32,712 bases of DNA from contig AZLU01000040.1 of the NCBI GenBank assembly GCA_002224055.1, positions 209,850-242,561 on the forward strand, written 5' to 3'. This document shows, piece by piece, positions 3,534 through 30,339 of the stretch. Source of the stretch: Pezizomycotina sp. ARF18 (taxonomy: Eukaryota; Ascomycota). Numbering within the stretch: the first letter of the stretch is position 1; every line of letters begins with the position of its first letter. The position numbers and the translations under genes are program-made. Below the pieces are notes generated by a model. That model ran no database searches, was not told where the DNA came from, and worked only from the letters and a program-made list of their open reading frames with translations.

Positions 3534-4434
3534 CCTGCGCATCACTAGCGGGACATTTCGGATCGGCGGCCGAAGGCGTCGTTGTATAACATCGCGTATC
3601 TTGTTCTTAGTTCTGTTAAGTTCGGGTATTTCCTTCCATCAATTGTCGGAATATAGGGAGGGCACAGTATTGCGTGAAGGTAAGGTCGTAGACTTCGGGA
3701 TTTTGGCATCGATGTTTAGCGCGAGGTGGCAGATTCCTTGGACCCAAAGAGGGAGGGAACAGACGTTTTCGCGACGCCGGGAAACATCGTGAAGGGGGAA
3801 ATTTATTGTAGCGTTCACCCCTTTTGAGCTAGTAATTTCAGAATATAGATAATCGTTGATAAGCGTCAATAGACTTCGCGATTATATCTTATGATAATAC
3901 TCGATTCTAAGACTTCATGCGATTCGTCGGCGCATGGGGGTATATATGTCTGTTCAACTATTAGTTGTTTATACCGTTGAGAAAAAACAAAAATGTAAAA
4001 ATGATGTTCGAAGCCCCACAGATGGCGAGATCTGAGAGGAAACTTGATGATAAGAGAAACTAAGGAATTCATTAGGCGAGAAAAGCATTCCAGACCAAAA
4101 GGACAGTGGAACTTGCGGTTTGAAAAACAGGAATTTGGCGGGGCTAGAAAGATGATCAGATTCGAACGTATTTCTCTCTAAATCCACTCGCATGATTTTT
4201 CTCCTGTTTTTGTTGGAAAAAAAGGTATGTACCTTTTTTTCTTTGTTTCGGATGGAATTAGCCTGATAGATTTTCAAACGCTCTTTCTTCTGAGGGAAAC
4301 ATTCAGACGAATGTACCTAATTTGATCACAGTAGCGTCGAGTTTGAGCTAGGCAGGAAACAATTCTGTACTAGTTCCCTGTTAGTCGAGAGTGGGGGCTT
4401 GCTGGCGGCGCTGGGGCCCTTGATCTTCAGGCCC

Positions 4435-14861: not shown

Positions 14862-17266
14862 ATGGCTAACCGGAGTTGTTCAGTATTCATCTCGGTCATC
14901 GTCGTGATCCTGCATTTTCCCATAACCCTCGCGGCGTTTGGTTTCGACCCTCTTCAGTTCGTCAACCCTCTTATTGGCTCCGATAACGGTGGCAATGTCT
15001 TTGCGGGCGTTTCCCTCCCTTACGGCCTCGCTAAAGCCGTAGCGGACGTCGACGGCCAGAACACTGGCGGTTTCTCAACGGACGGCAGCAACGTCACCGG
15101 CTTCAGCGCCTTACACGACTCCGGAACTGGCGGAAACCCTAGCCTTGGCAACTTCCCCTTGTTCCCACAAGTATGCCCCGACGAGAACGATGTAAACAGT
15201 TGCAAATTCCGCATCGGTGATAGGAAAGTCGGATACGTGCAAAACACCGTGGTCGCGAAACCGGGGTACTTCGGATTGATGTTGAATAATGGGGTGAAGG
15301 CGGATATGACGGTCGCGCATAAGACCGCGCTTATGAGATTTACGTTTCCTGCTGGTGGAGTCCACTTATTCTCCTCGATTTGACGGATTTATGGGCGAGC
15401 AGGCAGAATGCGTCTATTAGCGCCGATGATAGCGGTAGGATGAAGGGTAATGGGACGTTCTTGCCGAGCTTCGGCGCGGGGTCGTACGTTGCGCACTTTT
15501 GCGTGGATTTCTTTGGCGCGAAGGTACGCGATAATGGTATCTGGGTTAATAATCGGGCGGGCACGGAGCCGAAGACGATGTACGTGACCAGGGTTTCAAT
15601 TTATTCTACCTTGAAGCTGGCGGGTGGGCCAGGTTTAAAGAGATCGTGGATCAGACCGTCACTGCAAGAATAGGGCTGAGCTTCGTCAGTTCCGATCAGG
15701 CGTGTCGGAACGCAGAGAAGGAGATACCAGACCCGCTGAATTCCTTCGATGGGTTGGTTAGAGCGGCGGAAGAAGCCTGGAAGGACAAACTAAGTCCTGT
15801 GACGATAAAACCGGGCGGCGCGAGTAAGGATTTGCAGGTAAGCTTCTATAGCGGACTTTACCGCAGCATGCTGTCACCGCAGAATTATACCGGCGAGAAC
15901 CCTCGTTGGGATAGTGGGATTCCGTATTTTGATTCATTCTATTGGTAAGTCTAGACCTCTCCTTCCCATACAATTCCTACTTTCTAATTGTGCGAAACTT
16001 TGGAAGTATCTGGGATTCATTCCGCGTTCAGCACCCGCTCCTTACGATCATCGATCCGGAAGCACAACGGCAGATGATCGCCTCGCTTCTAGACATGTAC
16101 AAGCACGAGGGCTGGCTTCCCGACTGCCACATGTCCTTTTGCAACGGCTGGACGCAGGGTGGTAGTAATGCCGACGTTGTGTTAGTTGATGCGTATGTGA
16201 AGAACCTGACGCATGGGATCGACTGGAACTTTGCATTGGAGGCCATCGTTAACGACGCTGAAAATGAGCCGCTGGAGTGGAGTAAACACGGGCGCGGCGG
16301 CCTTCAGAGCTGGAAGACGCTGGACTACATTCCATATCTGGACTTCGATCCGCACGGGTTCGGTACAAATTCGAGAAGCATAAGTCGGACGCTAGAGTAT
16401 TCGTACAACGATTTCTGCCTCGCGACGCTCGCGGATCGGCTAGGGAAGTCGGACATGTACTCAAAGTATATGAAGAGAAGCATGAACTGGCAGCACCTCT
16501 GGAAAAAAGATCAAACAAGCGTAATCCACGGAAGAGATAGCGGCTTTAAAGGATTCTTTCAGCCGAAGTACGCGAATAGGACATGGGATACCAAGACCCC
16601 ATCGCGTGCTCTGCGCTGGCGGGCTTTTGCTCGCTAACGACGAATCCCAGTGAGACTTTCGAGGCGAGTATTTGGCAGTACCAGTTTTCATACCGCACTC
16701 GATCTCGTCGTTGATAGCTTTCAGCGGTGGGACGATGCCTTCGTGAAACGGCTGGACTTTTTCCACACGGTCGGACTGGCGGATATATCGAATGAGCCAG
16801 TCTTTTTGACGGTTTACTTGTATCACCACGCAGGTCGGCCTGGGCTGTCTGCGAAGCGTATTCATGATTATGTTCCACATTCTTTCAATAATTCTAACGA
16901 CGGCTTGCCTGGTAACGATGATTCTGGCGCTATGGGAGCGTTTTTGTTCTTCAGTATGACGGGACTTTTTCCTGTAGCCGGGCAAGATGTTTACCTCATA
17001 ACGCCGCCGTTCTTTCAGGAGATCAATATTACTAGTCCGTTGACGGGCAAGACGGCGGCGATCAGAAGCAAAAACTTTGATGCGAGTTATAAGAGTTTAT
17101 ATATACAGAGTGTAACAATAAATGGGAAGAGCTGGACGAAGAATTGGATTGGACATGAGTTCTTCACAGGTGGTTGGACTATAGAACTTGTGTTAGGGAC
17201 AAAGAGTCTGATTGGGGCACGAAGGAGGATGATAGGCCGCCGAGCTTGACCGGTGATATGCGTTAA
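14862..17266 (+). CDS. Glycoside hydrolase family 92 alpha-mannosidase, secreted
   Basis: GH92 enzymes are calcium-dependent exo-acting alpha-mannosidases that trim mannosides such as N-glycans. The ATG at 14862 begins a signal peptide (hydrophobic VFISVIVVILHFPITLA). The family start follows: FVNPLIGSDNGGNVFAGVSL and ALHDSGTGGNPSLGNFPLF. Further marks are GTFLPSFGAGSY, CNGWTQGGSNADVVLVDAYV, NDAENEPLEWSKHGRGG, SISRTLEYSYNDFCLATLA (the family acid Glu is probably here), KYANRTW and LPGNDDSGAMGAF (likely catalytic/calcium Asp pair), then LYIQSVTINGKSWTKNWIGH. One intron, 15945-16006 (GTAAGT..AAG), restores F-Y-C-I-W-D-S-F. Six breaks, each repaired by one added base: CC 15362-15363, GGG 15591-15593, GGG 16585-16587, TTTT 16685-16688, 16733-16734 and GGG 17196-17198. 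The stop is TAA 17264-17266. About 780 aa, full family length with catalytic motifs intact. Confidence 0.92.
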
Positions 17267-17780
17267 GCATTGATCAAACTTATATAATAACTAGTAACAT
17301 CATTTACGAGTGGAAGATGAGTTGGCGGTGAAAGGACATCATGGAAATCGGCAGCGTGTCGTGTTATAGTCTCTACTAAAGATTATAGTGCGAAAACGAG
17401 AGAAAATGTAGCGAAATGAAACAAGTAGCGATATCTCTCACTCATACAGCAACCCCGGCTGAGGCCGCCTCCTCACGCTCACCCCCTCTCCCCAGGCCCA
17501 GTCATAACGCAAACCGTCCTATTCCCGGCATTCTCATCCACCACGAATTGTACCCCTTCTATCCTCTCCGGTACCGCATTCACGTCACCGGTACTAACCC
17601 TGAACCTCCCCTCAGTTCCGCAGTCTAGTCTCGTCGTGCAGAGTGCCCACACCCAAAATGACGGTCGTGTATATAAAGGGGACCTTCTCCCACTTAGCTA
17701 GTTCTTAGTTTAGCAGACCAGATTAATTCCATTTTTCATCCATGATAGTGGTAGTTGCTTTTCATAGCGACTGCGTCACA
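17267..17780. other. Intergenic region between convergent genes, with an orphan TATA-like site
   Basis: Spacer between the GH92 gene and the end of the membrane-protein gene on the other strand. TATATAAAGG at 17670-17679 is a good TATA match on the plus strand, but no plus-strand gene follows it, so it may be chance or mark an unseen non-coding transcript. Confidence 0.4.
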
Positions 17781-19552
17781 CTACGACACTAGCACGAGCG
17801 TACTAACGGGATCCAGCATGTTACACACCAAGACATAGCTGCTCGAGCTCGCCATATAGAATAGCCAGATCCCTGCTGATATACTCAGCGACATTATAAC
17901 CGCCAGTAGTGCTGCTTGTAATGATGCCAGTGAGCCTTGCCCGAAGAGGCCGGAGTATACTTGTACGCCGAGTGGTGTTTGGGGGAATAATGACCCGTTG
18001 CTGGGCCGGATGAGGGTGTAACTGGAGAAAAGGACGAAGAAGGTAGTTGTGAAGCTTGAGCGGAGGACTTTCGATATTGAGATTGCGGCAGCGGCGCGTC
18101 CGCGACGGACGAGAGGTCTTCGTAGCGGAGAATGTCGGGGAGGGAGGAGCGGATTACTTCTTGGACTATAGCGTCGGAGACTGATTTCAGGACGGTGGTG
18201 GATGCGTTGTTGCGAACGAGAGAGAATTCGGAGCCTGAGACGGGACAGTACCATCCCATCGCGTTGTTTCGGGACCTGTATACGTCCCACTTGAGACCAG
18301 TGATGTTGTACGTACAGCTCGCGGTCCAGTCTTTTATATTTGCGGAGGCGAGCGGTATAATGCAAGTTCCATCTGGGACATCCTTTGAACTACTCTGGTT
18401 GCCAGCCTTGCTCAGACTATCGTTCGCGAGAAATATGCTGCAGCCGTATTGCGGGCTCAAGCCCGCGGTCTGTATTCGCGATACGACGTCTGAGCAGTCG
18501 GGGCAATTTGAGTATAATCTGTCGGTCAAAAGATTCTCGACTTCCAAGATCGTCGCATCGGGCCAAGGCCCGGCGGGAGGTGCACCGTTGCTCCAGGATG
18601 TCTTACCCGGACCAGAGTAAATACTGAACCGCGGTACCTATCTGGATAGATACAAAGCCACGGTCGGGTTGGCGGCGTATGTGGCAGCTCTAAAATAGGA
18701 TGGTATACTAACGTTCATCTTCAGTGGCGATAGTTCATCAGTTATGGAAGATATGTTAATATTTGAGTATGCGTTGACGGCATGTAGTAGCGCGTTTTCG
18801 TCGAAAGTGGGATGTTCTGGTACGCCCACAAGAATTCTATTGGCGTGTACGGTGCCCAGTCTTGACTTAACAGCGGCACGACGAGTGCGTTTGCGAATGT
18901 GAGCGGGATCGACCACGCCTCTAGTTCCGGATCTGACCCCATCCAGCTTTTCAGCCCATCTTGAGAGAACAGACTCCGGCCTAGTACGGCGTTGTAAAGC
19001 TTCAAGCTACTGATCTTAATCCTCGTACCCCGCCCGACCTTCCACCGCAAGTACACAGTTATCGCCTGGACGATCGGTAAGCTCAGACAACCCGCGATGA
19101 CATTGCCGATTACAGTGAGACATGAGGATACGGAACTAGGATACTTTTGCCCGAAGTGCCAGGTCAAATACCCAAAGTTCGGGACATGATTGAAGCCACC
19201 GAGGCCGATGACGATGATGAATACCGACCCGACGACGCCGCCTATGAGCGCGATAACGGTTATCGGGTCGAAGGTTCCAGTGGATGTTAAGGCGTGTAAT
19301 GATTTGCGAACGCGGTATTGGCGCTGGCCTTCGCTATAGATTAGGCCGACAAGCTCGTGCGAGTGGTTGCGCTTGTGGGCGTGATCGTACTCGTACGAGC
19401 CGTCGTTGATGTCTGTTTGAGCGGGACGAAGCGGGTTAGGTGTGTTTGTTGATCTTGTTTTTCGGTAGATTCGCGCATTATGTTAGTTGCGCTCGAAGGG
19501 GTGTCCGAAGACTGGGCGCCAGAGCGCTGAGGAATTCCTCAACGTCATCCAT
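17781..19552 (-). CDS. Unrecognised multi-pass membrane protein with Cys-containing extracellular domain
   Basis: I do not recognise the family. The proposed ATG is at 19552 (MDDVEEFLSALAPSLRTP). After one or two shifts comes a charged stretch (DINDGSYEYDHAHKRNH, GQRQYRVRKSLHAL), then a membrane helix ITVIALIGGVVGSVFIIVIG, a second near SCLTVIGNVIAGCLSLPIV, and a possible third in IPLTFANALVVPLL. A conserved-looking segment follows: QDWAPYTPIEFLWAYQNIP. A long hydrophilic part has YSNCPDCSDVV and CPVSGSEFSLVRNNASTTV with several Asn-x-Ser/Thr sites, suggesting a glycosylated outer domain. The C-terminus has helices around FTTTFFVLFSSYTLI and LLAVIMSLSISAGIWLFYM. Frame breaks occur near 18805, at an in-frame TAG 18638-18640 and near 18090, plus one or two near the start. 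Stop at 17781. About 590 aa. Confidence 0.6.
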
Positions 19553-20770: not shown

Positions 20771-22344
20771 TTATCCGAGCACCTCGTCCGCCTTTCCTTC
20801 ACTGGATATTGTGTATATCGGCGACATCGGGACTGCGATAGCAACGCCGATGCTAGGGCTACTCGCCCGTTTCGTCGAAGAAGGTAGCGAGAGAGGTTGA
20901 ACGGGAAGCGTCGGTGTGTCCGGCGGACATGTCGACGTGGGGCTTCGCTCCTCGACCTGAACCTCAACGTTCGTCGTCTTGACTATCACACTTTGCCCAT
21001 TCATCATCTCCATTTCGACAGCTTGCTCCTCGCCGCAACACCCCACAACTTGAGTATGATTGCTACATTTTCGGCCCTTGGTGTCTTCCCAATCGCTATT
21101 TGTCTCCCTGGAATTAATGTGCCGCTGGATTGCTTCTCGATGTCGCGGTCGCGGATGAGGCTGTCGTCGTCGGCGTCGTAGCCAGTAGATGCTGACTGCG
21201 GGAACATCGGTGAACGGGGCGATCGTGCAGCGGATATCCCTGTTCCGCTGTTCGAGTATCCGCCGGAGTTTTGTTCGCCGCCAGTGTAACGTACGTTTTT
21301 GACTATGCCTAGAACCTTCTTGAGAAGGATCTTGAGGGATGGGAGGCAGGCGCAGATGATGGCAATGTTGAACTCGGTGTGGGACCACAGTGTTACAATT
21401 GCGTTGTCGCTAAAATGTTCAATGGTTAGGCCAACTCCCAGTATGTATTGAATGTGCACGATATGGCAATGTGAATCGAATGAACTTACTAGGTCGGATC
21501 CCCGTAACGCTGACCTTCCACAGCGAATGCAACCTCAAAAAGCCTGTGAGAACCACAAAGAAACCTACAGCAAATACCAACAGGATACCTATCCTCTGCT
21601 TCTTCGGTAGCTGAATATTCCACAGCGTCCTCATGGGAAGCACGTAAACGTAAATATCGCTCACTATATTAATCGCCGCGCAGGAAAAGTAAAATGGGTG
21701 CGACTAATACAGTGACCACCCGCTTTAGGATCCCAGTCGAAATTTATGGGGGTGCACTGGAAGACGTCGACAAGGCAGACGGCGATAGTACTGCAGGTCA
21801 CGAACGCGATGCCAAAGTATACCATGAGACGCAGGGAGCGGGATAAGCGCAGGCAGAAAACGAGAATTGATAGTTTTACAGTCCCGCAGACGGCGAGGTA
21901 CATTATCTGGTGGTAGTAAAAGATCTTAATGGAGGATTTGAAGTCCGTTCCGGGAGGGAGGTCGTAGATGTGCTGGCCGAAGCCATATTTTAGCTCTGTA
22001 ATCTCATAAATTAGTATTAATTTGCCCAAATAATCCCGTGTTTAATTTAGAATATCTAGGAGAAGATCAGACTAGTTACGGTACTTACGGACAAGCTGTG
22101 TAATTGCCATTCCGACGGACAGTCCCAGAGAAAAGAGTATCAACCAGTCATCCCACCATAGGCCACCTTTGTGCTTGAAATATCGAATGTAGAAACGGAG
22201 AGTGACGAAGATTATGGCGAGTATCGTGAGGACCGAGACGAGTATGATGATTTCGTGGACGCGAGATTCATCGTGGTGGTGTTCTGGATGTCCGCCGACC
22301 CCAACATCCGTGCCGTTTGCAGATTTAGCCATGTCCGTATGCAT
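20771..22344 (-). CDS. Pth11-like fungal rhodopsin-domain membrane protein (receptor E)
   Basis: Best preserved of the four Pth11-like genes. The ATG at 22344 gives a His-rich short N-terminus, then helix 1 (IIILVSVLTILAIIFVTLRF), WWDDWLILFSLGLSVGMAIT, the intracellular-type motif LKYGFGQHIYDLPPG, IKIFYYHQIMYLAVCGTVKL, VYFGIAFVTCSTIAVCLVDV with FQCTP, then VSDIYVYVLPMRTLWNIQL, IGILLVFAVGFFVVLTGFLR, and FNIAIICACLPSLKILL in helix 7. Introns are 21996-22088 and 21410-21489, each joining in frame (LVQLKYG and P-T-Y-D-N-A). Three breaks, each repaired by one added base: A-run 21691-21694 (sense TTTT), C-run 21500-21503 and T-run 21068-21071 (sense AAAA). After helix 7 comes a Ser/Thr/Pro-rich cytoplasmic tail of about 150 residues, ending at TAA 20771-20773. 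About 467 aa. No CFEM domain. Confidence 0.85.
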
Positions 22345-29072: not shown

Positions 29073-30339
29073 TTAAACTATACCCCTGCTACCCCTTTGC
29101 GTCTCCAACAGCACCGCCGTAAAGCCTGTAAAACCGTATACTCGCTGCGTCGCGTCTGCGTCGTTTCTTCTTGTTTGTCGGGCGGTGTATGTTGATAACG
29201 GCTTGTTGGGTTCATCGCCCATTTGTGAGTGAGAACGGAGCCGGGAGAAGGGGCGGAGATGGTGCTGACTTTCGATTTGAAGCGGTGGATTGTTGATGAT
29301 GTTGAAGGGAGAAGCGGTGGACTGTCGGTGTTAGGGCGCGGATTACGGGTTTGCAGAAGGGGAGACAGGCGCAGGCGATTGTCAGGTTTAGTTCTATGCC
29401 GATGGAGGCGTAGACGGCGTAGGCGTACCTGTGATCAATTTCGTGTTAGTGTAACAGCTCTTATGCTACGATACTCTAGGCGTTGATTATATACGTCCTG
29501 GAAAGCGAAGGAGAAAAGAGAGCTTACAGCTGTTTTCATCCGCATTATACAAAACACCATGATGAGTTTTATGCGCACCAGCGCGACGCACACAGAAAAC
29601 CCACCCCAGCACCGCGATCATGCTGATCTTCTTCGCCTGGACGCGTGCACCTTCCAGATTACTGTACGGCAGCAAAAACACATAAAGTCCGAAATCACGT
29701 TCAGCGCCTGTTGCAATGAACAACACCACTCCCACCGTATGCGGCGTCCAGCACGATCCGTACGGAACATCGTAACTCCAAAACTTCCTTACGGGATTAC
29801 ACGACACCGTTATCAATATCCCAACACCGGACGTCCAAACAATACAAAACGCCATGGTCGAGAACACCGCCAATCGAAACCGGGGGAGGAAGTAGCCGCG
29901 CCGGCGAAGCGCAGGTAGAAGAATAGTATCGATAGCTTTGTCAAGAGCGCGCCGACGGGGAATACCCACTCCTGGATGAACTCGGTGAGCAGAGGCGGGA
30001 AGCGTCGGGGCGGTAGAGGTCGTGGTAGTGCCGTCTGAGCCGTACTCGACGGCGAGCATGTGCGTGACGGTGAGGATTATAGCGCAGAGGAGGGCGAGGG
30101 AGATGAAGAGGTCGTCGAGACCTGGTGTTTTGAGGATGGCGGCCCGGCGTAGATGCGGACGCCCAGAGGGCGAAGGCTATATTAGGAGTATTATCTGTTT
30201 ATAAAAATGTACCAATTAGTAACACAGCTGATCCATGGAGATATTTGGGTCAGAGATTGATGTAATTGGAACTCACCTCGGTAGGAGGGAGGTAATGTCC
30301 TAACGACTGGAGCGTTGGCTTCTTCACGAAGCCGGCCAT
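29073..30339 (-). CDS. Pth11-like fungal rhodopsin-domain membrane protein (receptor G)
   Basis: The proposed ATG at 30339 (MAGFVKKPTLQSLGHYLPPT) is followed by intron 30195-30276. Family marks come next: IAFALWA then V-R-I-Y-A-R, LDDLFISLALLCAIILTVTH, LAVEYG with H-Y-H-D-L-Y, EFIQEWVFPVGALLTKLSIL and FFYLRFA, FRLAVFSTMAFCIVWTSGVG, CNPVRKFW, FGLYVFLLPYSNLEGARV, and YAYAVYASIGIELNLTIACA with CLPFCKPVIR. The second intron, 29429-29527, joins properly if one A is restored in the sense run GATGAAAACAG, one of at least five breaks. After helix 7 two frames are open, so the C-terminus lies between about 29224 and the TAA at 29073-29075. About 360 aa. Intron positions differ from those of E, F and H, so this is an old paralogue rather than a recent tandem copy. 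Confidence 0.75.

Follow-up and report, generated by a model that had tools for sequence, protein, structure and literature searches.

Enzymes of family GH92 act as calcium-dependent exo-alpha-mannosidases, and the bacterial members with solved structures (2wvx, 6f8z, 6f91 and 7zgm), as well as genes carried on plasmids of Asticcacaulis and Sphingomonas, carry two Pfam domains, first PF17678 at the N terminus and then the catalytic domain PF07971. At the level of a whole genome, the closest described case is that of Drechmeria coniospora, for which nanopore-only assemblies at first yielded full-length predictions for less than a sixth of a set of 305 conserved genes; the errors were mostly homopolymer indels and were repaired by accurate short reads (PMC7500977). 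Here we analysed a window of 32,712 nucleotides from contig AZLU01000040.1 of Pezizomycotina sp. ARF18, whose assembly comprises 46,361,250 bases (46.36 Mb) in 408 contigs. The window contains a two-exon gene of the GH92 alpha-mannosidase family at 14862..17266 on the plus strand, recognised from its reading frames and from Pfam and TIGR01180 matches to pieces of it. The gene shares the two domains and their order with the bacterial references and is 36-38% identical to them over the aligned length, but unlike them it has one spliceosomal intron and its frames are broken in this sequence. We regard the six breaks as single-base deletion errors of the assembly, and hold this to be almost certain because essential genes elsewhere in the same contig set are broken likewise and at least as often.

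Three-frame translation resolves the gene into eight reading pieces that run through the three frames in the order A, C, B, intron, A, C, B, A, C (A being the frame of position 14862) and are closed by a TAA stop. Outside the intron there are six frame changes, each of -1 modulo 3 (the size of each is fixed only modulo 3), and the 767 codons lying between breaks are free of stops. The intron, at 15945..16006 on the plus strand, is 62 nt long, runs from GT to AG in phase 2 and takes the same position with either of two bacterial GH92 references. The initial annotation had described a full-length GH92 gene with six frame breaks, an intact intron and no nonsense other than that caused by shifts, and our analysis agrees with it in all three respects. 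The first piece matches PF17678 with E = 2e-40 and the second continues the same profile (140-205 of 236, E = 1.2e-05, under the family cut-off), and three pieces match PF07971 above the cut-off (E = 2.2e-16, 7.7e-62 and 1.8e-48), covering profile positions 1-67, 85-261 and 298-463 of 464; positions from about 262 to 297 of that profile are matched by no piece of the gene. The order of the domains is the correct one, and TIGR01180 is matched piece by piece, with every piece under the whole-protein cut-off. The GNDDxG motif, which we take to carry the catalytic aspartates, is kept and aligns with the same motif in the three solved structures shown, so that bacterial GH92 alpha-mannosidases and the ARF18 gene have it in common. 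For the catalytic glutamate motif, the presumed location is the piece of 36 aa that separates break 3 from break 4, and this piece has neither a Pfam match nor a GH92 match among solved structures. With PF17678, PF07971 and a GNDDxG motif aligned to solved structures, the gene itself is, judged by its sequence, an ordinary one.

Each break can be confined to an interval that runs from the stop opening the new frame to the stop closing the old one, and these intervals are 58-121 nt wide. All six lie on the plus strand and stand for a change of -1 modulo 3: break 1 at 15320..15383 (placed by alignment at 15357 or 15372), break 2 at 15550..15673 (15569 or 15578), break 3 at 16577..16637, break 4 at 16651..16714, break 5 at 16635..16746 (16732 or 16735) and break 6 at 17156..17249 (17190 or 17205). 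The positions given for the six breaks in the initial annotation all fall inside these intervals. Shift-aware alignment to the full-length plasmid GH92 proteins of Asticcacaulis and Sphingomonas (36% and 38% identity) recovers four of the six breaks whichever reference is used; breaks 3 and 4, near 16585 and 16687, are not resolved with either bacterial reference and are swallowed by a gap together with a 48-nt pseudo-intron. We nevertheless counted these two as breaks because the stretch between them has a collinear, if weak, match in the other GH92 gene of the genome (10 of 20 residues identical, 50%, E = 0.10), and their status as breaks is less certain than that of the others.

The same kind of breakage was found in conserved genes across the assembly. 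Matches to HSP70 on contigs C49, C70, C3, C208 and C303 adjoin each other too closely to admit an intron, yet lie in different frames. Compared with E. coli DnaK, to which they are 53-59% identical, the HSP70 genes on C70, C49 and C3 carry 12, 7 and 15 frame shifts, a total of 34 over 5213 bp, the corresponding counts being 10, 7 and 17 with Rhodococcus DnaK and 10, 7 and 19 with Ruminococcus DnaK as the reference. By size, 26 of the 34 shifts are of -1, four of -2, two of +2 and two of +1, and 30 are thus base losses. Six control genes together gave 1 frame shift in 11917 bp. These controls, all bacterial, intronless and 44-62% identical, were E. coli hscA, three plasmid dnaK genes (Ruminococcus, Rhodococcus and Streptomyces) and the two plasmid GH92 genes, aligned to one another. 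The HSP70 gene on C208, which is 32% identical to DnaK and has 6 shifts and one stop, and the CCT/Hsp60 loci L025 (29%, 2 shifts) and L027 (a short local match) were excluded from the counts because the reference was too distant. Match tables of five conserved families, namely CCT/Hsp60, HSP70, ATP synthase, class I tRNA synthetases and the RNA polymerase second subunit, contain 38 frame changes at which no intron would fit, spread over 16 of the 26 groups formed by contig and strand, a mechanical count that takes in a few overlapping or nested matches and was made on this assembly alone; the changes are of -1 or +2 in 29 cases and of +1 or -2 in the other 9. In the gene for the RNA polymerase second subunit, the frame changes between neighbouring matches that share one base. 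Frame shifts likewise break conserved genes in the long-read assembly of D. coniospora; its polishing introduced more insertions than deletions (PMC7500977), while in ARF18 it is base losses that dominate.

The longest stop-to-stop frame measures 151-421 aa (median 241) in the 18 ten-kb stretches surveyed from this assembly alone. Out of the 19 stretches fetched, L007 was omitted for its 3893 N; this stretch (C40:200000-209849), which adjoins the window, has N at 3893 of 9850 bases, possibly an assembly gap. The only other GH92 gene found in the genome, at C60:192859-195485, shows 9 or 14 shifts depending on the reference, a count that is rough because the identity is 37% and there are up to six candidate introns. 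Scanning the contigs with a 217-aa piece returned five stretches that matched the pattern, none of which encodes a relative. The window also holds two PF20684 (fungal rhodopsin-domain) genes on the minus strand, at 29078-30176 and 21004-21534, and these genes, together with the spliceosomal intron and the size of the genome, agree with a fungal source. The frame of the former changes around 29882-29900, between matched stretches 17 nt apart, the shorter of the two matches having E = 0.0006, under the family cut-off.

Break density in the GH92 gene is 2.6 per kb (95% limits 0.94-5.6) against 6.5 per kb in the three HSP70 genes (two-sided p = 0.027), the GH92 breaks having been counted by eye from the frames and the HSP70 breaks by alignment, which gives four for GH92; among the HSP70 genes themselves the density varies from 4 to 9 per kb. 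Since the rate in GH92 is lower than that in HSP70, nothing beyond the background is left to explain in the GH92 gene. The initial annotation had attributed the breaks to sequence error and not to decay, and this attribution is strengthened by conserved genes on many contigs in which single-base losses break the frame as often or more often, and also by single missing bases among copies of the 5S rRNA. The error is not specific to the GH92 gene and affects the assembly as a whole.

The 5S rRNA copies provide sequence that is not translated. Fifteen matches cover the full Rfam model with spans of 116-123 nt, five of them at 120 nt, nine shorter and one longer, and six of the fifteen were taken into an alignment. 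Relative to the best-scoring copy L051, the copies L052, L053 and L054 have 2, 1 and 3 bases fewer; all six of these gaps fall in runs of at least two identical bases and five in runs of at least three, whereas runs of these lengths make up 40% and 21% of L051. L055 and L056 also carry substitutions, and one of the four gap columns in the diverged L055 falls outside a run. Natural variation between 5S copies may be a source of such gaps. An Rfam search of the window gave no match at the gathering score, and no tRNA was found in the window and 30 further loci. Near-identical long repeats inside the 19 stretches amount to one 162-bp pair and two short matches within L017, too few to allow exact indel statistics.

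As to how the bases were lost, the initial annotation had pointed to under-calling of homopolymers, and here the outcome is mixed: the gaps of the three 5S copies speak for it, whereas the 26 HSP70 sites with a shift of -1 show no excess, a run of at least three bases lying nearby in 7 of them (27%) against 30% expected. The position of each of these sites is uncertain by a few bases and a run that has lost a base is less easily spotted, and for this reason the HSP70 result is not contrary to the homopolymer mechanism. The break positions of the initial annotation have a run of at least three bases no more than 4 nt away in five of six cases, compared with 32% of all positions in the gene, although this is not a fair test, the points having been chosen by the annotator within wide intervals. 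A homopolymer bias behind the breaks is therefore only partly supported. In D. coniospora most errors lie in homopolymers (PMC7500977), while in ARF18 a bias towards runs is seen in the 5S copies only.

Other readings of the six breaks were weighed against sequence error. One is that the GH92 gene is a true and recent pseudogene that happens to sit in an assembly full of errors, with some of its breaks being real. Errors elsewhere are indeed no proof that this particular gene is intact, and with a second GH92 gene in the genome its loss could be tolerated, but the gene is broken no more often than HSP70 (2.6 versus 6.5 breaks per kb), the codons between its breaks are free of stops, its intron borders and GNDDxG motif are kept and its six changes all share one sign, which leaves this reading highly improbable. 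Decay confined to the GH92 gene was rejected, the HSP70 breaks being at least as dense. Another reading concerns breaks 3 and 4, which could together represent one unrecognised short intron, the gene then having four breaks and two introns. In its favour, the shift-aware alignment places a 48-nt GT..AG intron at 16606-16654 with both bacterial references, and the piece between the two breaks lacks a match in Pfam and among solved structures. However, the stretch that such an intron would skip is the one that matches the other GH92 gene collinearly (10/20 identical, E = 0.10), that gene has a candidate intron of its own beyond this point, and the alignment requires an additional gap of 5 to 15 residues. 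Fungal GH92 proteins would be expected to carry the stretch in question. On the grounds of the collinear match and the extra gap the single short intron was rejected, and we consider it very unlikely.

Programmed frameshifting throughout the genome, by which the organism would read genes with missing bases, has in its favour that many conserved genes are broken and the cell must make those proteins somehow. Yet at the 26 HSP70 sites no 4- to 7-mer is shared or enriched and the slippery heptamer XXXYYYZ is found at none of them, the HSP70 shifts are mixed in sign and size (-1, -2, +1 and +2), their density differs between HSP70 genes (4-9 per kb), and single-base gaps also occur in the untranslated 5S rRNA copies. 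The lack of a motif or slippery heptamer, taken with the 5S gaps, argues against recoding at translation, and with the mixed signs added programmed frameshifting was rejected, its probability being vanishingly small. A related reading supposes that genes throughout this eukaryote's genome truly lack single bases, the frame being restored during or after transcription by extensive frameshifting or by RNA editing that inserts bases. The 5S copies and the missing motif count against it as well, and we give it a chance so small as to be negligible. Compared with all of these, sequence error in the assembly is by far the better supported reading, and the six-break pattern of the GH92 gene is an artefact and not a real biological feature.

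A separate observation concerns a dispersed repeat of about 158-162 bp, at 17627-17788 of the window, which lies some 360 bp beyond the end of the GH92 gene. It has 28 matches in the genome, of 68-162 bp and 83-100% identity, and 24 of the 27 matches other than the query stretch are shorter than it. In two copies inspected by eye, 4-bp direct repeats lie alongside (CTAG in one, GCAG in the other) and the ends form an inverted pair resembling TGTCGT..ACGACA, and the repeat may be a small mobile element or a solo terminal repeat. One copy, at C60:195896-196057 (L006:5896-6057), is situated about 420 bp beyond the last match of the other GH92 gene and in the opposite orientation. The presence of the repeat beside both GH92 genes, spotted after the fact, is possibly due to chance or to an insertion preference.

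We propose that uncorrected errors across the whole contig set, mostly the drop of a single base during base-calling or consensus, would produce the pattern seen here. Such an error profile would resemble that of long-read assemblies never polished with accurate short reads, a sequencing technology that we infer for this genome. In the organism, the GH92 gene would most likely be one open frame over two exons encoding an ordinary GH92 alpha-mannosidase, and its open pieces and kept motifs suggest that it is probably intact, expressed and active. The breaks thus have no bearing on the biology of GH92 and serve as a warning about this assembly, in which broken frames, missing long open reading frames, apparent pseudogenes and split genes should first be presumed to reflect sequence error. 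Findings from this genome that depend on a disrupted frame, a missing gene or an unusual indel are to be discounted until the sequence is corrected.
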